A stretch of 64,000 nucleotides of DNA. Origin: Gammaproteobacteria bacterium. Lineage in GTDB: Bacteria > Pseudomonadota > Gammaproteobacteria > Eutrophobiales > Eutrophobiaceae. Within the stretch, counting starts at the first letter, position 1. The number at the start of each line of letters is the position of its first letter. A program made the translations under genes and the position numbers. The notes under the pieces are model-generated. The model had not been told where the DNA came from. It did no database searches and saw nothing but the letters and a program-made list of their open reading frames with translations. This document shows, piece by piece, positions 49,500-64,000 of the stretch. The stretch lies in NCBI GenBank assembly GCA_016193395.1, contig JACPSH010000002.1, forward strand, positions 62,001 through 126,000. The letters are read 5' to 3'.

Positions 49500-49556
49500 T
49501 CGGATCGATTGGAAACCCACGGCGGTGAACGGCCGGGTTCCCATTGCGTGGGTCGG

Positions 49557-49638
49557 CGGGCGGGTCCTGCCATCGGGTACCGTCTTCGTGCTCGCTATCG
49601 CTGCGCGCGAAGAGCGGTGACCCGATGTCACCCGCCCG
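49557..49638. repeat. Family C palindromic repeat, copy 1 (inverse orientation)
   Basis: Arms CGGGCGGGTCCTG... and ...GTCACCCGCCCG enclose CATCGGGTACC/GGTGACCCGATG-type inner arms and the core CTGCGCGCG. About 82 bases. It faces copy 2 tail to tail, 48 bases away, in the 3' region between the SET and NhaC genes. Confidence 0.75.
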
Positions 49639-49686
49639 TTCGGCGCCCGTGGCTGAATCCGGCAAGGCTCAAGCGCAGGAGTCAAA

Positions 49687-49780
49687 CGGACGGGTGGCAC
49701 CGGGCATTCCCCTTGTCCGCGCGCAAGCGAGGGAACCGAGCGCGCACGGACAAGGGGTGCCCGGTGACAGGACCCGTCCG
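49687..49780. repeat. Family C palindromic repeat, copy 2
   Basis: Outer arms CGGACGGGT and ACCCGTCCG, inner arms CACCGGGCA/TGCCCGGTG, then CCTTGTCCGCGCGC and GCGCGCACGGACAAGG as further inverted segments. 94 bases. It ends 17 bases before the NhaC stop. Confidence 0.8.
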
Positions 49781-49797
49781 GCACGGTTTGCTGCCGT

Positions 49798-53801: not shown

Positions 53802-55094
53802 TCAAACATCCTGAGACATCTTTTCCGTGGTGGCCGAAAGACGGTGGATAAGGGTACGGAGAAACACCTTGAGGAAGCGCACCTGGCAGTTGAGGGACAC
53901 CTGCGAGATCACGGTGGAGTTGATCTTGAGGAGCGCGGTGTCTTCCTGCGCGGCGATTGTCGCGGTGCGCTTGGTCTTGGCGAGATAACCCATCTCGCCG
54001 AAGCAGTCGCCGGTGGTCAGCGTGCGGATCACCTTCCTGCCCTTCTTCACCGCAACCTTTCCGGACACAATAATATAGAAGCAGTCGTCGAGATCGCCCT
54101 CGACGATGATGTCCTCGCCGCGCGTGTAGTCGGTCCAGGTCGCCGCGCGGATGATTTCCCAAATCTCCGAATCCGGGAAACCGAGGAAGAATTCCAGCTT
54201 CTTCACCGAGTTGAATTTCTCCTCGATGGAGATGTCCTGCTCCGGGCGCTCGAGGGATTCGAAGGCCTTGCTCAGATCAGCGGCGAGATCGAGCCCCATC
54301 TGGTAGCGATCCTCGAGCTTCTTGGCCGTGGCCTTGCGCACGATGGGCTCGAGTACTTCGGGCAAATCGGCGCGCATGTCGCGCAGCGGCGGCGCCTCCT
54401 CGTTCAGGATGCGGTTCACCAACCGCGAGAAATTCTCCGCGGCGAAGGGATGCTTACCGGTCAGCATCTCGTACATCACGAGCCCAAGCGAGAACAGGTC
54501 GGTCTGCGTGCCCACCGATTCCTCGCGCAACTGCTCCGGCGACATGTACTTGGGGGAACCCATCATCCCGGCATGTTGCGTCGTTGTGGAGTCGGGCTTG
54601 TTGATGTGGGCGATGCTGAAGTCCGCGATCTTGACGTCGATGTCCTTGGTCACCAGCAGGTTGGAAGGCTTGATGTCGCGGTGGACCACGCCCTGCCGGT
54701 GCGCGTAGTCGAGGGCCTTGGCGCACTTGAAGATGATCTCGACCACCTTCTCTACCGGCAGCAGGTTATTCGGGCGCGTGTAGGTCTTCAGCGTCTCCCC
54801 GCCCTCGATGTACTCCATGACGATGTAGCAGGTCTCTTCGTCCGCCCCGGCGTCGAAGATGCTGATGATGTTCGGGTGTGCCAGCTTGCCGGCGGTGTGT
54901 GCTTCGTTGAAGAACATCTTCCGGTACCGGGCGCCGGATTCTTTGTCGTTCAATGTATCCGCCAGCGCCACTTTGATCGCGACGGGCCGGTCGATGTACG
55001 GGTCATGGCCGAGGTAGACGATGCCCATGCTGCCCCGGCTGATCTCGTTGCGGACTTCGTATTTTCCCAGTCTCTCGGGAGCTTCGTTCGTCAT
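53802..55094 (-). CDS. Serine/threonine kinase fused to a cyclic-nucleotide-binding domain (paralogue 1)
   Basis: A 430-residue protein. Kinase domain (about 10-290): glycine loop ISRGSMGIVY, K41 in VAIK, E64, HRD at 138-140 with DIKPSN, and a metal-binding loop with DFS (158-160) in place of the usual DFG; SPEQ replaces APE. CNBD (about 300-420): DDCFYIIVSGKVAV and TTGDCFGEMGYLAKTKRTATI, the phosphate-binding cassette. Cyclic nucleotide control of a Hanks-type kinase on one chain is suggested. Its catalytic Asp and Lys remain, so it may be active. ATG 55094 is chosen over GTG 55103. Confidence 0.9.
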   Translation of the reverse strand: MTNEAPERLGKYEVRNEISRGSMGIVYLGHDPYIDRPVAIKVALADTLNDKESGARYRKMFFNEAHTAGKLAHPNIISIFDAGADEETCYIVMEYIEGGETLKTYTRPNNLLPVEKVVEIIFKCAKALDYAHRQGVVHRDIKPSNLLVTKDIDVKIADFSIAHINKPDSTTTQHAGMMGSPKYMSPEQLREESVGTQTDLFSLGLVMYEMLTGKHPFAAENFSRLVNRILNEEAPPLRDMRADLPEVLEPIVRKATAKKLEDRYQMGLDLAADLSKAFESLERPEQDISIEEKFNSVKKLEFFLGFPDSEIWEIIRAATWTDYTRGEDIIVEGDLDDCFYIIVSGKVAVKKGRKVIRTLTTGDCFGEMGYLAKTKRTATIAAQEDTALLKINSTVISQVSLNCQVRFLKVFLRTLIHRLSATTEKMSQDV

Positions 55095-55138
55095 AACCGG
55101 CACTGGCGTGAATTACTCATGAATTTCGAGTCGAGAAG

Positions 55139-55244
55139 CGGACGGGTGGCATCGGGTACCGCCATCCGCGCGCAGCGGAAGGGACCCACTGGGGGATGGG
55201 CGAAGCGAGCACGGATGGCGGTACCCGATGACAGGACCCGGCCG
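55139..55244. repeat. Family C palindromic repeat, copy 3
   Basis: Outer arms CGGACGGGT and ACCCGGCCG, perfect inner arms CATCGGGTACCGCCATCCG and CGGATGGCGGTACCCGATG, and the core CGCGCAGCGGAAGGGACC...GCGAAGCGAGCA. 106 bases. It lies between the divergent kinase 1 and pgi genes, so it could influence their promoters. Confidence 0.85.
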
Positions 55245-55394
55245 CGTCAAGTCTGAATCTTTCATGAATAATCCGGGCTGAATAGGCGTGGAATGGTACT
55301 GGAATCATGCTGGTTTGGACAGCGCGGGCGGCCGCGCCCGTGACGCGCTGCGCACGGCGCCTCGCCTGGCAGGGGAATATGCAAGAATACCGTC

Positions 55395-57152: not shown

Positions 57153-57218
57153 ACCGGCGGCTCGGCTGCGCATGAGTACCGCGGGGCGGGTCGGCTGGAT
57201 TCATGCGGCGGCGCTGAA

Positions 57219-57302
57219 CGGACGGGTGGCATCGGGTACCTCTGCTCCGCGCGCAGAGTGGAACGAACACCCGGCGATCCGCCAAGCCTCGCGAAGCGAG
57301 TG
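57219..57302. repeat. Family C palindromic repeat, copy 4, right arm missing
   Basis: Left arm CGGACGGGTGGCATCGGGTACC is intact, followed by the core CCGCGCGCAGAGTGGAACG and then CCTCGCGAAGCGAG. The right outer arm is missing. It stops next to the TAA of kinase 2 (57303-57305), so kinase 2 ends where the element begins or vice versa. Confidence 0.65.
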
Positions 57303-58601
57303 TTAATTGGACGGCGCGGCCGCCATGACGGTGGTGGAGGACAGGCGCTTGACCAGCGTCCGCAGGAATACGCGGCTGAAGCGTAACTGGCAGTCGACCG
57401 ATACTTGCTCGATCAGGGTCGAGTTGAGCTTCATGAGATCCACCGGCTCTGTTGCCACGATCGTCGCCGTGCGCTCGGCCTTGGACAGGTAACCCATTTC
57501 GCCGAAACAGTCCCCGGCGACCAGCTGGCCGATCGCGCGCGAGCCCTTACGCACCTCGACCCTGCCGCTGACAATAATAAAGAAGGAATCGTCAATATCG
57601 CCCTCAGTGATGATGCCAGCGCCAGGGTTGAACTTCTGCCACGTGCAAGCATGGACGATTTCCCAGATCTCCGAGTCCATGAAGTCCCGGAAAAAGTCGA
57701 GCTTCTTGATTGCATTGAATTTCTCTTCCGCTTCGATGTCCTCCTCGTGCTGTTCCAGATAATCGAATGCCAGGCTGAGGTCGGCCGCCATGTTCAGTCC
57801 CATCTTGTAGCGTTTCTCCGGGTTCTTCTGCAGCGCGTGATGGATGATCTTCTCGAGGATGTCCGGCAGGTCCGAGCGATGGGTCTTCAGCAGCGGCTGC
57901 TTCTCATTGATGATCTTGTGGATGAGGCGGGAAAAGCTGTCCGCGATGAATGGATGCTTCCCGGTCAGCATTTCGTACATGACGATGCCGAGCGAAAAGA
58001 GATCGGTCTGGTTGGTGATGCTGTCCTCCTGCACCTGTTCCGGCGACATGTACCGGGGCGAGCCCACAAAGCCCATGGGCATGGTGTGCGTGGAGGTGTC
58101 CGAGCCGATGATGTGGGCAATGCTGAAATCACCGATCTTCACGTCCCGCGTCGGGGTGATCAGGATATTGGTCGGCTTGATGTCGCGATGGACCACGCCC
58201 TGGCGGTGGGCATAGTCGAGCGCTTTGGCGCACTTGAAGATGATCTCGACCACCTGGTGGATCGGCAGGAGGTTGTCCTGCTTGCAGTGGGTCTTCAGGG
58301 TCTCCCCGTCCTGCACCAGCTCCATGACGATGTAGCAGTCCTCGCCATCGGCGCCCGCGTCCAGGATTTCGAGGATGTTGGGGTGGCGCAGCTTGCCCGC
58401 GGTATGCGCCTCGTTGAAAAACATCTTGCGGTAGCGGGCGCCCGACTCCTTGTCCTTCAGCGAATCCGCCAGGGCGACCTTGACGGCCACAGGCCGATCC
58501 GCAAACGGATCGTACCCTTCGTATACGATCCCCATGCTGCCCCGCCCCACCTGCCGGCGGATGTCGTATTTGCCTATCTTGTCAGGAGCCAGGGTGCTCA
58601 T
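57303..58601 (-). CDS. Serine/threonine kinase fused to a cyclic-nucleotide-binding domain (paralogue 2)
   Basis: A 432-residue paralogue of the protein at 53802-55094, aligned by eye without gaps through the kinase core: VGRGSMGIVY, K41 in VAVK, HRDIKPTN at 138-145, and DFS again at 158-160, with SPEQ. The CNBD is SFFIIVSGRVEV, VAGDCFGEMGYLSKAERTATI. The same substitutions in both copies suggest that DFS is functional and inherited. It lies downstream of pgi on the other strand and upstream of the phosphonate genes. Confidence 0.9.
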   Translation of the reverse strand: MSTLAPDKIGKYDIRRQVGRGSMGIVYEGYDPFADRPVAVKVALADSLKDKESGARYRKMFFNEAHTAGKLRHPNILEILDAGADGEDCYIVMELVQDGETLKTHCKQDNLLPIHQVVEIIFKCAKALDYAHRQGVVHRDIKPTNILITPTRDVKIGDFSIAHIIGSDTSTHTMPMGFVGSPRYMSPEQVQEDSITNQTDLFSLGIVMYEMLTGKHPFIADSFSRLIHKIINEKQPLLKTHRSDLPDILEKIIHHALQKNPEKRYKMGLNMAADLSLAFDYLEQHEEDIEAEEKFNAIKKLDFFRDFMDSEIWEIVHACTWQKFNPGAGIITEGDIDDSFFIIVSGRVEVRKGSRAIGQLVAGDCFGEMGYLSKAERTATIVATEPVDLMKLNSTLIEQVSVDCQLRFSRVFLRTLVKRLSSTTVMAAAPSN

Positions 58602-58868: not shown

Positions 58869-59618
58869 ATGAAAGTCGTCATTCTCGCCGCCGGAGTGGG
58901 CGAACGGCTCGCCGATGCCGCCGGCGGCAAGCCCAAGTGTCTGCTGGAGTTCGGCGGGTGTACCCTGCTTGAGCGGCACCTGCGCGTTCTGGACAGGCTG
59001 GACCCGGCGGACATCACGATCGTGACGGGTTTCCGGCAGGAGCTGATCCAGGCGGCGGTCGCAAACATCGGCCTGAGGATGCCTGTCAACACCATCATCA
59101 ATCCCGATTTCCGGCTCGGCAGCATCGTCAGCCTCTGGTGCGCGAGGCCGGTGCTGGAAAGCGGGGACGATGTCGTCGTGATGGACGCGGACGTGCTTTA
59201 CGATCCGTCCGTGTTGCAGAGGCTGTTCGAAACGCAATATGCCAACTGCTTTCTGCTCGATCGCGATTTCGAGCCGGGCGAAGAGCCGGTCAAAGTATGC
59301 TTGCGCGGCGGGCGTATAGTGGAATTCCGCAAACAGCTGGCGCCCGACCTGGAATACGACGCGCAGGGGGAATCCGTGGGCTTCTTCCGCTTCGATCGGG
59401 GCACAGCGCGCGCGCTCGCGGCGCGGGCCACGCACTATGTCGACGGCGGGCGCAGCGATGCCCCTTACGAAGAGGCGATCCGCGATCTCGTGCTCCGCGA
59501 ACCGGAGGCGTTCGGCTGCGAGGACGTAACCGGTCTCCCCTGGATCGAAATCGATTTCCCGCAGGATATCGAATGCGCGCGCGCCGGGATACTGCCGCGG
59601 ATCTCCATGGAAATCTGA
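58869..59618 (+). CDS. Sugar/choline-type nucleotidyltransferase
   Basis: A 249-residue NTP-transferase: MKVVILAAGVGERLADAAGGKPKCLLEFGG (NTP-binding loop GxGxR-like and PK), TIVTGFRQELI, VVVMDADVLYD (metal Asp pair) and VDGGRSDAPYEEAIRDLV. Such enzymes make CDP- or other NDP-activated small phosphates. It starts a three-gene run with PEP mutase and phosphonopyruvate decarboxylase, with no gap to the next gene, so a cytidylyltransferase acting on a phosphonate or its alcohol is plausible. Confidence 0.82.
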   Translation: MKVVILAAGVGERLADAAGGKPKCLLEFGGCTLLERHLRVLDRLDPADITIVTGFRQELIQAAVANIGLRMPVNTIINPDFRLGSIVSLWCARPVLESGDDVVVMDADVLYDPSVLQRLFETQYANCFLLDRDFEPGEEPVKVCLRGGRIVEFRKQLAPDLEYDAQGESVGFFRFDRGTARALAARATHYVDGGRSDAPYEEAIRDLVLREPEAFGCEDVTGLPWIEIDFPQDIECARAGILPRISMEI

Positions 59619-61274
59619 ATGGCCACACAACCCTCGCGCGTTCACCAGGACGGCTCCAAGTGCCGGCGGCTGCGCGCGTTGCTCGCCTCGCCGCGGCTGG
59701 AATTCATACTCGAGGCCCACAACGGCATATCCGCGCGCATCGTCGAGGAGGCGGGCTTCCGGGGGATATGGGCCAGCGGGCTGGCGCTGTCCGCGCAATT
59801 CGGGGTGCGCGACAACAACGAGGCGAGCTGGACGCAGCTCGTGGATATGCTCGAATTCATGTCCGATGTCACGACCATCCCGATCCTGCTCGACGGCGAT
59901 ACCGGCTACGGCAATTTCAACAACATGCGGCGCCTGGTGCGCAAGCTCGAGCAGCGCCACATCGCCGGCGTCTGCATTGAAGACAAGCAATTCCCAAAGA
60001 CGAACAGCTTCATCGACGGCGAGCGCCAGCCGCTCGCGGACATCGACGAATTCTGCGGCAAGATCAAGGCTGGCAAGGACAGTCAGCAGGACGACGACTT
60101 CTGCATCATCGCCCGGGTGGAGGCGCTGATCGCAGGTTGGGGATTGACGGAGGCCCTGCGGCGGGCCGAGGCCTATCGCCTGGCGGGGGCGGACGGCATC
60201 CTCATCCACAGCAAGCTGTCGCGCCCCGACGAGATCCTGGAGTTCGCCGAGGAATGGGCCGGCCGCGCGCCCGTCGTCATCGTCCCGACGAAGTACTACA
60301 GCACGCCAGTGGATGTCTTCCGCAAGGCCGGAATCAGCATGGTGATCTGGGCCAACCACATGATCCGCGCGTCGATCGCCGCGTTCGAGCGCGTCAGCCG
60401 CCGCATCCTCGAAGATCAATCGGTGTCCGGTATCGAGGATCAGATCGCGCCAATCGAGCGGGTCTTCACCCTTCAGGGCGCCGATGAACTGAGCCGCGCC
60501 CAAGCCCGCTATCTCGGCAACCACGGCAAGACGCACGCCATCGTGCTGGCCGCGAGCCGTGGCAATGCGCTGCATGAACTCACCGAGACCCGCCCCAAGG
60601 TCATGCTCAAGATCGGCGGCAGGCCGCTCCTCGATCGGCTCGCGGAGGAATTCAGGCGCCAGTCAGTCGGCCGGATCATCGTGGTGGTCGGCTACCGGGC
60701 CGAAGCCATCAACACCAGCGGCATCGAAAAGCGCGTCAACGAGTCCTTCGCCACGACCGGGGAACTGGCGTCGCTCGCCTGCGCCGAGGACGCGCTCGAC
60801 GGGGACATGGTTATCCTCTACGGCGATCTGCTGTTCCGCGGCTACATCCTGCGGGATCTGCTGGACAGCGAAGCGGAACTGACCGTCACCGTGGACTCCG
60901 CGCTGCAAGGCAGCCGCAAGAGTGGAGCGCCGGACTTCGCCTATTGCACGCGCCCGGATGAACGATCGCTGTTCCGGGAGACGGTGCGGCTGCTGCACAT
61001 TGCGGAACTGGGCGCAACGCCGAAGCTGCAATCCCCGTCCGGCCGCTGGATCGGCATGCTCCGCGCCCGCGGCGAGGGCGCACGCTGGATCCGCGACGCC
61101 CTGGCGGCACTGCGGCAACGGAACGATTTCGCCAGATTGACGATCCCTGACCTGATCAATTTCCTGGTGGATTCCGGGAAACCAGTGCAGGTGCATTACA
61201 TCCACGGACACTGGCTGGACGTCAATTCGCTCGACGACATCGATCGCGCCGGCGACTTCACCCACGGACAGTGA
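59619..61274 (+). CDS. Phosphoenolpyruvate mutase fused to nucleotidyltransferase
   Basis: A 551-residue bifunctional protein. Residues 1-290 are PEP mutase, which makes the C-P bond of phosphonates: [47 protein letters not shown] and the diagnostic [11 protein letters not shown] loop. Residues about 305-550 are a second NTP transferase with [40 protein letters not shown] and [11 protein letters not shown]. The fusion implies that the product is later nucleotide-activated. It starts immediately after the preceding gene stop. Confidence 0.93.
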
Positions 61275-61281
61275 TTCTGCC

Positions 61282-62439
61282 TTGATCGACGCGCGGGATT
61301 TTGTCGAGGCGGCGCGCACGGCCGGCTTCACGCGTTACTCCGGCGTCCCCTGTTCGTATCTCACGCCGTTCATCAACTACGTCATCAATGACGAAACGCT
61401 GAGCTACGTGTCCGCGGCCAACGAGGGCGATGCGGTCGCGATCGCGGCGGGCTCCGCTATCGGCGGGAAGCGTGCCGTAGCCATGATGCAGAATTCCGGC
61501 CTCGGCAACGCGGTCAGTCCACTGACTTCGCTCGCGTGGGTATTCCGGATCCCGCTGCTGCTGATCACGACCCATCGTGGCGCGCCCGGGGAGAAGGATG
61601 AGCCCCAGCATGAACTCATGGGCCGCATCACGCCCACCATGCTCGAATCGATGGAAATCCCGTGGGCGCCCTTCCCCGCGGAAGCCCCGCAGATCGCCCC
61701 GGCCCTGAAGCAGGCGCAGGCATGGTTCGCGCGTGAACAACGGCCTTACGGCTTCATCATGCGCAAGGATACCGTCGCGCCCTGCGTACTCGCGCGCCAG
61801 CCAGTCCCGATCAGGGAAACGTCCGGCGCCACGCGCAGGCATTTCGAACGTCCAGGCAAAACCCGGCCGTCCCGCGTGGAAGCGCTCCGACGGATCCTGG
61901 GTCTCACGCCCGTGGATCGCACGGTCGTGATCGCGACCACCGGATACACGGGCCGCGAGCTGTATGCGCTTGAGGACCGCCCCAACCAGCTCTACATGGT
62001 GGGCTCGATGGGCTGCGCGTCCTCGCTGGGCCTGGGTCTGGCGCTGGCGCGGCCCGATATGAAGATCGTGGTCATCGACGGTGACGGTGCCGCGCTCATG
62101 CGCATGGGAAACCTTGCGACCGCGGGGACCTATGCCGGAAACAACCTGGTGCATATCGTCCTCGACAACGGTGTACACGATTCGACCGGGGCCCAGGCGA
62201 CCGTTTCCGCGAACGTGGATTTTGCCGCAATCGCCAGCGCTTGTGGTTACGGCCTCGCGATCAGCGGCGACGACACCACGCTGCTAGGAGACTTGCTGAA
62301 GGAAGGGACGAACCGCCGTGGTCCGCTGTTCGCGCACCTGAAGATCACCGCAGGAACCATCGACAACCTGCCGCGCCCGAAAATCAGTCCCCCCGATGTA
62401 CTGCGCAGGCTGATGGCGCACATCGGCACACAGTTCTAA
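61282..62439 (+). CDS. Phosphonopyruvate decarboxylase
   Basis: A 385-residue thiamine-diphosphate enzyme converting phosphonopyruvate to phosphonoacetaldehyde, the irreversible pull for the mutase. Landmarks: SYLTPFINYV, SAANEGDAVAIAAGSAIGGKRAVAMMQNSGLGNAVSPLTSL, SMGCASSLGLGLALARPDMKIVVIDGDGAALMRMGNLATAG (ThDP and Mg site) and LDNGVHDSTGAQ. TTG start 7 bases after the PEP mutase stop. The aminotransferase or dehydrogenase expected for the next step is not in the window. Confidence 0.94.
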   Translation: MIDARDFVEAARTAGFTRYSGVPCSYLTPFINYVINDETLSYVSAANEGDAVAIAAGSAIGGKRAVAMMQNSGLGNAVSPLTSLAWVFRIPLLLITTHRGAPGEKDEPQHELMGRITPTMLESMEIPWAPFPAEAPQIAPALKQAQAWFAREQRPYGFIMRKDTVAPCVLARQPVPIRETSGATRRHFERPGKTRPSRVEALRRILGLTPVDRTVVIATTGYTGRELYALEDRPNQLYMVGSMGCASSLGLGLALARPDMKIVVIDGDGAALMRMGNLATAGTYAGNNLVHIVLDNGVHDSTGAQATVSANVDFAAIASACGYGLAISGDDTTLLGDLLKEGTNRRGPLFAHLKITAGTIDNLPRPKISPPDVLRRLMAHIGTQF

Positions 62440-62532
62440 CGCGGCCGGATTCATGTGCGCATGGTACCGGACGGGTCCTGTCACGGGGCCTTTAACTGTT
62501 GTAGCCGGCCGGTTCCAATCCTGCATCCGGGG

Positions 62533-62639
62533 CGGGCAGGCCCTGCCATCGGGTACCGCCGTTCGTGCTCGATCCAACCCTCCCCCAGTGGGGCCCTTCC
62601 GCTGCGCGCGGACGACGGTGACCCGATGTCACCCGCCCG
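62533..62639. repeat. Family C palindromic repeat, copy 5 (inverse orientation)
   Basis: Arms CGGGCAGGCCCTGCCATCGGGTACC and ...GGTGACCCGATGTCACCCGCCCG with core GTTCGTGCTCGA...CCGCTGCGCGCGGACG. It precedes copy 6 tail to tail, as at 49557/49687. A further single arm, CCGGACGGGTCCTGTCAC, is at about 62467-62484. The whole 62440-62836 interval between the phosphonate and dxs genes is taken up by these repeats. Confidence 0.75.
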
Positions 62640-62689
62640 TTTGGCACCCGAGCCGGGATCCGGCCGGATTCACACGTAGGAGATAAACG

Positions 62690-62784
62690 CGACGGGTGGC
62701 ACCGGGCACTCCCCTTCTTCCGCGCGCAGGCGAGGGGACCGAGCGAGCACGGAAAAGGGGTGCCCGGTGACAGGACCCGTCCGG
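62690..62784. repeat. Family C palindromic repeat, copy 6
   Basis: Arms GACGGGTGGCACCGGGCA and TGCCCGGTGACAGGACCCGTC with core CTTCCGCGCGCAGGCGAGGGGACCGAGCGAGCACGGAA. About 95 bases. It is very close to copy 2 in sequence and lies downstream of dxs. Confidence 0.82.
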
Positions 62785-62836
62785 CACCCTACGAAAGAAC
62801 AAATATGGCCGGGATCGCTGAGCAGCGAGGCTACGT

Positions 62837-64000
62837 TCAGGCGGACTTTGCGGCCTGGCCGGCCGCATTCACACGCTCGCGGACGAAGGCGAGTAGACCC
62901 TCCGCCGTGAGACCGGCGTCGCGCAGCATGTCTTCGCGCTCGCCGTGCTGGATCAGGCGATCAGGGATCCCGTAGTTGTACGCCCGTTGCAGGACGCCGT
63001 TCGCGGCCAGCACTTCGTTTACCGCGCTGCCCGCGCCGCCCTGCACCATGTTGTCCTCGACCGTGAACAGGAACTCGTGCTCCAGCGCGTGCCGCAGGAT
63101 CGCATCCTCGTCGATCGGCTTGACGAAGCGCATGTTCACGACCGTGGCGTCCAGCGCTTCGCCGGCCTCCTGCGCCGCGGGCACCATCGCGCCGAATGCG
63201 AGTATCGCAATGCGACGGCCCTTGCGCCGCGACTCCGACTTGCCCAAGGGGAGGGCCGTCATCTCCGCCTGCACCGGCACACCCGGGCCGCTGCCGCGCG
63301 GATAGCGGACCGCCGCAGGCTGGTTCAGCTGGAAGCCGGTATACAACATCTGCCGGCACTCGTTCTCGTCGGCCGGCGCCATGACGACCATGCCCGGCAG
63401 GCAGCGCAGATAGCTGAGATCGTAAACACCGTTGTGTGTCGGACCGTCGCCGCCCACCAGTCCCGCGCGATCAATGGCGAAGAGCACGGGAAGCGACTGC
63501 GTCACGACATCGTGTATGAGCTGGTCGTAGCCGCGCTGCAGGAAGGTTGAGTAAATGGCAACCACTGGCTTCAGGCCATCGCAGGCCATGCCGGCGGCGA
63601 CCGCCACGCTGTGCTGCTCCGCAATTGCCACGTCGAAATAGCGTTCCGGAAATTCTTTCTCGAAACGCACCAGCCCGGAGCCTTCGCGCATCGCGGGCGT
63701 GATGGCAACCAGGCGCGGATCGCGCGCGGCCATGTCGCAGACCCAATCGCTGAAGACGTCGCTGTATTTCGGCCGGCTGGGCTTCTTGGATGCGACCATT
63801 CCCTGCTTCGGATCAAAAGGCGTGACGGCGTGGTATTTGACCGGGTCAGCTTCGGCCGGGGCATAACCCTTGCCCTTCTTGGTGATGACATGCAGCAACT
63901 GCGGTCCCTCGAGCCGCTTCAGGTTTCGGATGGTTTCGAGCAGCGTCGGCAGATCGTGGCCGTCGACGGGGCCGATGTAGTTGAATCCGAACTCTTCAAA
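62837..64000 (-). CDS. dxs: 1-deoxy-D-xylulose-5-phosphate synthase, N-terminus beyond window
   Basis: First enzyme of the MEP isoprenoid pathway, joining pyruvate and glyceraldehyde-3-phosphate with thiamine diphosphate. The 387 residues in view begin in [25 protein letters not shown] and contain [104 protein letters not shown] and the C-terminal transketolase-like domain. The frame is open to base 64000; about 230 N-terminal residues lie outside the window. Family C repeats follow its 3' end. Confidence 0.96.

Follow-up and report, generated by a model that had tools for sequence, protein, structure and literature searches.

Near the end of a 64,000-nucleotide stretch of DNA (bases 62001–126000 of contig C57 in a 2.7-Mb gammaproteobacterial draft genome; hereafter the window), three genes of a phosphonate cluster follow one another on the same strand. 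These encode a stand-alone nucleotidyltransferase resembling PntC and LicC, which we call NTPt1; a fusion of phosphoenolpyruvate (PEP) mutase, PepM, to a second nucleoside-triphosphate (NTP) transferase domain; and phosphonopyruvate decarboxylase, encoded by ppd (Table 1). A first-pass annotation had described the three as contiguous, with 0 and 7 bases between them, and both the open reading frames and the sequence agree. The PEP mutase motif that it pointed to in the fusion is likewise sound: EDKxFPKxNS occurs in all 101 PepM proteins that we collected, and the fusion in the window carries the EDKxxxxxNS signature. Family assignments are firm for the mutase portion of the fusion (TIGR02320, 399.7 bits against an equivalog cut-off of 319.55; alignment to Mytilus PEP mutase 1m1b, E=2e-123) and for the decarboxylase (TIGR03297, 440.4 bits against a cut-off of 312.5). 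Both NTP transferase domains pass Pfam PF12804, the fused one with 45.4 bits at residues 307–417. Frameshifts in related strains, named in the annotation as a warning sign, break up the fusion in three drafts (G021, G025, G048), where it occupies two frames; the great majority retain a single open frame, and a few other genomes yielded the fusion only in part, at contig ends.

Table 1. Features of the phosphonate cluster and its surroundings, in window coordinates
Feature	Position	Strand	Remarks
NTPt1, stand-alone PntC/LicC-like nucleotidyltransferase	58869–59618	+	ATG start, 249 aa; PF12804 57.9 bits
PepM–NTP transferase fusion	59619–61274	+	ATG start, 551 aa; 0 bases after NTPt1 TGA
PEP mutase domain of fusion	59670–60485	+	Residues 18–289; TIGR02320 match and alignment to 1m1b
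Fused NTP-transferase-like domain	60531–61262	+	Residues 305–548; altered signature loop; alignment with LicC 1jyk
Phosphonopyruvate decarboxylase (ppd)	61282–62439	+	TTG start, 385 aa; 7 bases after fusion TGA
Dispersed MITE-like repeat	62458–62793		32-nt terminal inverted repeats, 88%; between ppd and dxs
dxs, 1-deoxy-D-xylulose-5-phosphate synthase	62837–64000, runs past window end	-	PF02779, PF02780, PF13292
Ser/Thr kinase	53802–55094	-	C-terminal cyclic-nucleotide-binding domain
Ser/Thr kinase	57303–58601	-	C-terminal cyclic-nucleotide-binding domain
MITE-like repeat, further copy	49555–49784		
MITE-like repeat, further copy	55136–55245		
MITE-like repeat, further copy	57192–57256		

Pathway partners and hopanoid genes in the same genome

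The aminotransferase or phosphatidyltransferase partner had been called missing, which is true of the window and untrue of the genome: the search that the annotation proposed finds both a 2-aminoethylphosphonate (AEP) transaminase and a CDP-alcohol phosphotransferase on other contigs. The transaminase, PhnW, is encoded on contig C17 and scores above the family cut-offs (TIGR02326, 452.5 against 400.8 bits; NF010006, 496.8 against 296 bits). The phosphotransferase gene runs from the end of C17 onto C3, and these contig ends overlap by 141 identical bases. Joined, it encodes 204 residues with the full D-x2-D-G-x2-A-R-x8-G-x3-D-x3-D motif (DHTDGELARLTGNMTRFGHYYDLASD), and its halves score 29.6 and 41.4 bits with PF01066, for which the cut-off is 22. 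Its profile relatives are the CDP-alcohol phosphotransferases AF2299, IPCT/DIPPS and CEPT1. Other candidates were considered for the transferase role, and pgsA and a phosphatidylserine-synthase-like gene were set aside as belonging to ordinary phospholipid synthesis. Contig C29 (L004 955–2169) bears another CDP-alcohol phosphotransferase, with a partial NTP-transferase-like N-terminus, which adjoins a diacylglycerol-kinase-like gene and resembles a worn IPCT/DIPPS.

The phosphotransferase gene is flanked by hpnN and hpnA. Before hpnN stand genes for a PhyH-type oxygenase, hpnG, a squalene-synthase-like gene and hpnL, from which phnW diverges. On the cluster's own contig, past the end of the window (L018), dxs is followed by hpnH, hpnB, hpnM and vacJ; the proteins score 549 bits (HpnH, TIGR03470), 374 bits (HpnB, TIGR03469) and 194.5 bits (HpnM, TIGR03481). 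With the cluster next to dxs–hpnHBM and its partners next to hpnL, hpnN and hpnA, both halves of the phosphonate pathway thus adjoin hopanoid genes. The genome's hopanoid set consists of HpnA, HpnB, a HpnD-like protein, HpnG, HpnH, HpnL, HpnM, HpnN and squalene-hopene cyclase (SHC). SHC lies above the TIGR01507 cut-off and HpnG, at 174.1 bits, slightly below its cut-off of 187.1; SHC, HpnH and HpnG together mark a producer of C35 hopanoids. The PhyH-type oxygenase between hpnG and hpnN (L020 15737–16480) is related to methylphosphonate hydroxylase (194 bits against a cut-off of 500). Its conservation extends to the hpn operons of several families and to Brasilonema, and the enzyme may add a hydroxyl group to either the phosphonate or the side chain of the hopanoid.

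Conservation and gene replacement within the order

We compared 53 genomes of the order, from one family and 18 genera, with the gene caller retrained per locus for AT-rich relatives. The mutase fusion is present in 46 of them, SHC above its cut-off in 43 and HpnH in 49; mutase and SHC occur together in 42, and every mutase-carrying genome has HpnH. In genus g6 the mutase, SHC and HpnH are all present in two genomes and all absent from three. Most genera share the gene order NTPt1–PepM fusion–ppd–aminotransferase–dxs–hpnH–hpnB–hpnM, and full-length fusion orthologs are 62–71% identical through the order. This degree of conservation, like that of a core trait, bears on the possibility that the product is a small diffusible phosphonate, which the NTP transferases would activate for tailoring as in fosfomycin or FR-900098 synthesis. 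Although cytidylyltransferase steps are known in those pathways (PMC6697681), the constant partners here are lipid genes, and we regard such a product as very improbable.

In most relatives ppd is followed by an aminotransferase that shares only about 35% identity with the PhnW encoded here. The corresponding place here is occupied by a dispersed repeat resembling a miniature inverted-repeat transposable element (MITE). Close PhnW homologs were found in 12 genomes, this one included, and the in-cluster aminotransferase in 35; no genome has both, and the only mutase genome with neither is partial and contaminated. The distribution is best read as the replacement of one enzyme by the other. A catabolic role for PhnW was rejected, given this complementary distribution and the lack of any phosphonatase above cut-off in the 53 genomes.

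Other features recur around the cluster. Copies of the repeat measure about 260–330 bases, and more of them lie elsewhere in the window (Table 1) and on other contigs (L018 13346–13577; L021 8050–8280). The two Ser/Thr kinases, which are similar to one another and lie around a phosphoglucose isomerase gene, are conserved beside the phosphonate cluster through most of the order. In several genera (G040, G041 and others) a second clade of CDP-alcohol phosphotransferase, about 40% identical, is encoded beside hpnJ- and hpnK-like genes (L081 10030–10623, L083 8810–9409, L078 17179–17760), so that some genomes of the order may attach two different head groups.

The module in other lineages

Scanning 85,000 genomes returned 80 loci, from Gammaproteobacteria, Burkholderiaceae (Burkholderia, Paraburkholderia, Cupriavidus, Trinickia, Caballeronia and Pandoraea), Nevskia, Nitrococcus and cyanobacteria. 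Culturable, non-pathogenic bacteria that carry the module include Calothrix sp. HK-06, Nostoc sp. CHAB 5824, Cupriavidus plantarum and Paraburkholderia sartisoli. In several gammaproteobacterial families, phosphonate and hopanoid genes form one continuous superlocus of varying completeness, in which a squalene-synthase-like gene, SHC, hpnG, PhyH, hpnN, the phosphotransferase, hpnA and a 2-oxoglutarate oxygenase are followed by NTPt1, the mutase fusion, ppd, the aminotransferase, dxs, hpnH, hpnB and hpnM. The CDP-alcohol phosphotransferase gene lies between hpnN and hpnA in many genera and inside the pepM operon itself in Burkholderiaceae and cyanobacteria; the latter arrangement backs the lipid option in the earlier suggestion of attachment to a lipid or glycan. 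Many Burkholderiaceae have the set phosphotransferase, oxygenase, hpnL-like gene, NTPt1, fusion, ppd and aminotransferase, and in Pandoraea dxs, hpnN and hpnH follow the module. Elsewhere the neighboring hopanoid genes are hpnJ, hpnK and hpnI (Calothrix and Nostoc), hpnA and hpnH (Brasilonema) or hpnR (Nitrococcus). The phosphotransferase of the present genome falls in one clade (support 83/99) with those encoded in the pepM operons of Burkholderiaceae, Nevskia, Nostoc and Calothrix.

Burkholderiaceae, cyanobacteria and several Gammaproteobacteria encode a second 2-oxoglutarate Fe(II) oxygenase (HalD/2OG-FeII_Oxy_3), close to NTPt1 and the phosphotransferase (for example, L145 9254–10000, L113 9185–9868 and L136 7276–8115). 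In Pandoraea the oxygenase and the phosphotransferase are one protein (L175 6741–8162).

Co-occurrence with squalene-hopene cyclase

Across the class, an even draw of 276 gammaproteobacterial genomes, each at least 90% complete, contained the mutase fusion in 19, SHC in 39 and both in 18. SHC was therefore present in 18 of the 19 mutase carriers compared with 21 of the 257 non-carriers (Fisher p=1.4e-16, a value inflated by relatedness). Counted by family, ten of 11 carrier families have SHC (p ~2e-8, assuming about 155 families in the draw and again inflated by relatedness). Outside the order, SHC is above cut-off in 41 of 43 genomes with the fusion, and the two others are drafts that have hpn genes in the very locus. 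The one exception in the class draw, genome G282, has a mutase locus without NTPt1, the CDP-alcohol phosphotransferase or hpn genes and with a different NTP transferase after the aminotransferase; it does not carry this module.

That exception is also pertinent to another reading, in which a glycan or lipopolysaccharide would carry the phosphonate, as with the Lic-like phosphonoglycan clusters. Cell-surface glycans are the assigned destination for most PepM–PntC clusters examined to date (PMC6697681), and in G282 a related fusion may stand in a setting of this kind; yet G282 lacks both SHC and a linked phosphotransferase. Moreover, LicD, which we considered as the transferase, was rejected because none was found in this genome or in 49 of the 53 genomes of the order, and the recurrent neighbors at the loci that we read in the order are lipid genes rather than capsule or glycan genes. 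Decoration of a glycan thus appears improbable here.

One canonical and one altered nucleotidyltransferase domain

The profile of the NTPt1 family identifies Tde-PntC (6pd1), an AEP cytidylyltransferase, as its best solved relative (E=1.9e-21), with LicC (1jyk) next. The match to Tde-PntC spans the full length of the protein (residues 2–247) and backs the idea, raised in the annotation, that the phosphonate is activated through a nucleotide before transfer. Among NTPt1 homologs, LAAGxGxRL is present in 78 of 80, MDADV in 77 of 80 and WxExD in 80 of 80; NTPt1 itself has LAAGVGERL, MDADV and WIEID, and so possesses the GxGxR loop and metal-binding acidic residues of PntC. The two amine-contacting positions are mixed: Asp106 matches LicC, whereas Glu201 matches Tde-PntC (residues according to PMC6697681). 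NTPt1 is predicted to be an AEP cytidylyltransferase that makes cytidine monophosphate–AEP (CMP-AEP), the product of characterized PntC enzymes (PMC6697681). Rice et al. tested enzymes of the unfused kind, separate from the mutase (PMC6697681).

The fused domain differs. In 87 of 101 collected fusions LAA[ST]RGxxL replaces LAAGxGxRL; the signature arginine is gone, and with it the canonical GxGxR signature of PntC. The PK lysine, the Asp of YGDLLF and a C-terminal Asp are retained and are invariant within the order. An AlphaFold model of the fusion, of moderate mean confidence (predicted local distance difference test score, pLDDT, 76.6), suggests a complete alpha/beta fold for this domain, the signature loop at residues 316–326 having pLDDT below 50. 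The simplest reading makes stand-alone NTPt1 the cytidylyltransferase and gives the fused domain a changed activity or a part in binding or assembly. Two NTP transferase domains might be read as a sign of two activation steps. That argument is weakened, as the fused domain lacks the catalytic signature and fused and separate NTP transferases have already been described together (PMC6697681); with GxGxR kept only by NTPt1, two such domains need not mean two activated products.

Proposed pathway and its probable acceptor

We propose, with a probability of roughly 0.6, that the three genes form the first half of a pathway to a phosphonolipid, with a hopanoid as the most likely acceptor. The proposal builds on enzyme families, genomic linkage and SHC co-occurrence, all as read from sequence. 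Its first steps follow from established families: PEP mutase would convert PEP to phosphonopyruvate, the decarboxylase would yield phosphonoacetaldehyde, and the transaminase, here the unlinked PhnW on C17, would produce AEP. NTPt1 would then form CMP-AEP, from which the CDP-alcohol phosphotransferase would move AEP onto a hydroxyl group of a C35 bacteriohopanepolyol, the polyol itself being the product of SHC, HpnH and HpnG; HpnL and HpnN-like proteins would then perhaps move the lipid. Activation and the association with the transferase are both well supported. CMP-AEP is the probable donor in view of the similarity of NTPt1 to PntC and the operon that NTPt1 shares with the phosphotransferase, and a hopanoid is the probable acceptor in view of the hpn neighborhood in separate lineages, the position of the phosphotransferase gene between hpnN and hpnA, and the co-occurrence with SHC. 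The roles suggested here for the fused domain and the two 2-oxoglutarate oxygenases are putative. The expectation that the product may be unusual is upheld through this hopanoid association and not through missing genes.

The main rival is an ordinary phosphonolipid, in which CMP-AEP would be passed to diacylglycerol and hopanoids would be co-inherited, both lipids being part of the same membrane adaptation. The phosphotransferase profile also matches CPT1 and CEPT1, eukaryotic relatives that use diacylglycerol, as the bacterial enzyme could, and the Nostoc and Burkholderia cluster has been interpreted as one for phosphonolipid synthesis (PMC5987646). Most Burkholderiaceae modules, moreover, are not beside hpn genes: within 10 kb of most of these loci the hpnL-like gene is the only hopanoid gene, and HpnL belongs to a broad membrane family. 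Nevertheless, SHC is not needed for a diacylglycerol lipid and yet accompanies nearly all carriers, the phosphotransferase gene sits between hpnN and hpnA in many genera, and hopanoid tailoring genes (hpnJKI, hpnA–hpnH, hpnR) turn up repeatedly next to the module, in lineages that are separate and arrange their genes differently. On balance, we consider a diacylglycerol acceptor less likely, although it is the alternative to be taken most seriously.

Several further points weigh against a hopanoid acceptor. The AEP-hopanoid lipid is a prediction from genes. In the class draw, 21 genomes possess SHC but no mutase, and hopanoids thus do not need the latter. Synteny within the order partly reflects shared ancestry, as the kinase and phosphoglucose isomerase neighbors are conserved too. 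Support for the phosphotransferase clade is moderate and the root of the tree uncertain. Finally, PhnW adjoins hpnL in this genome, and no linkage of PhnW to hopanoid genes was seen in relatives.

Relation to known systems and significance

Parts of this system have precedents. The PntC-containing phosphonyl tailoring (Pnt) clusters of Rice et al. 2019 (PMC6697681) share the PepM–PF12804 fusion, a separate PntC-like cytidylyltransferase, Ppd, an AEP transaminase and the CMP-AEP logic; they differ in using LicD or glycosyltransferases in place of a CDP-alcohol phosphotransferase of the hopanoid-linked clade, and the fused domain here lacks the GxGxR signature. A cluster in lichen Nostoc and in Burkholderia has the same module (CDP-alcohol phosphatidyltransferase, 2-oxoglutarate Fe(II) oxidase, NTPT, pepM, ppd, AEPT and hpnL), whereas here the genes are divided between two contigs and linked with hpnHBM, hpnN and hpnA; that cluster was read as one for a phosphonolipid in a paper whose main text does not contain the term hopan- (PMC5987646). 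In Roseomonas, a link between hopene cyclase and PEP mutase was remarked upon and a terpene-phosphonate suggested (PMC8776678). That remark notices the same association, but concerns a few Acetobacteraceae and includes no acceptor, transferase or genome-wide test. IPCT/DIPPS works by the same chemistry, pairing a MobA-like cytidylyltransferase with a CDP-alcohol phosphotransferase; the score here is 55.6 bits against a family cut-off of 580. The standard hpn set includes neither the linked CDP-alcohol phosphotransferase nor the PhyH oxygenase. We found no report of a phosphono-hopanoid in the open-access literature, subscription papers being outside the scope of the search. To our knowledge, the known head groups of bacteriohopanepolyols (amino, glucosamine, cyclitol ether) carry no phosphonate. 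The module as a phosphonolipid cluster in Nostoc and Burkholderia and the hopene cyclase–pepM link in Roseomonas are therefore already known; the genome-wide association, the common phosphotransferase clade, the replacement of the transaminase and the fused domain's loss of its signature are new.

More broadly, we lean towards the view that aminoethylphosphonyl-hopanoids may be a widespread lipid class in many Gammaproteobacteria, some Burkholderiales and some cyanobacteria, made via CMP-AEP and a CDP-alcohol phosphotransferase specific for hopanoids. The simplest member, AEP-bacteriohopanetetrol, would have a calculated [M+H]+ of about 654.49. Hopanoids, which in bacteria correspond to sterols, give rise to molecular fossils in wide use, and their polar heads vary. 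There would be several implications. First, a likely role would be assigned to the CDP-alcohol phosphotransferase found in many hpn operons. Second, a phosphonate head group would make for a hydrolysis-resistant hopanoid. Third, such lipids would be a source of biogenic C–P compounds. Finally, a share of the unexplained PepM clusters would gain a function.

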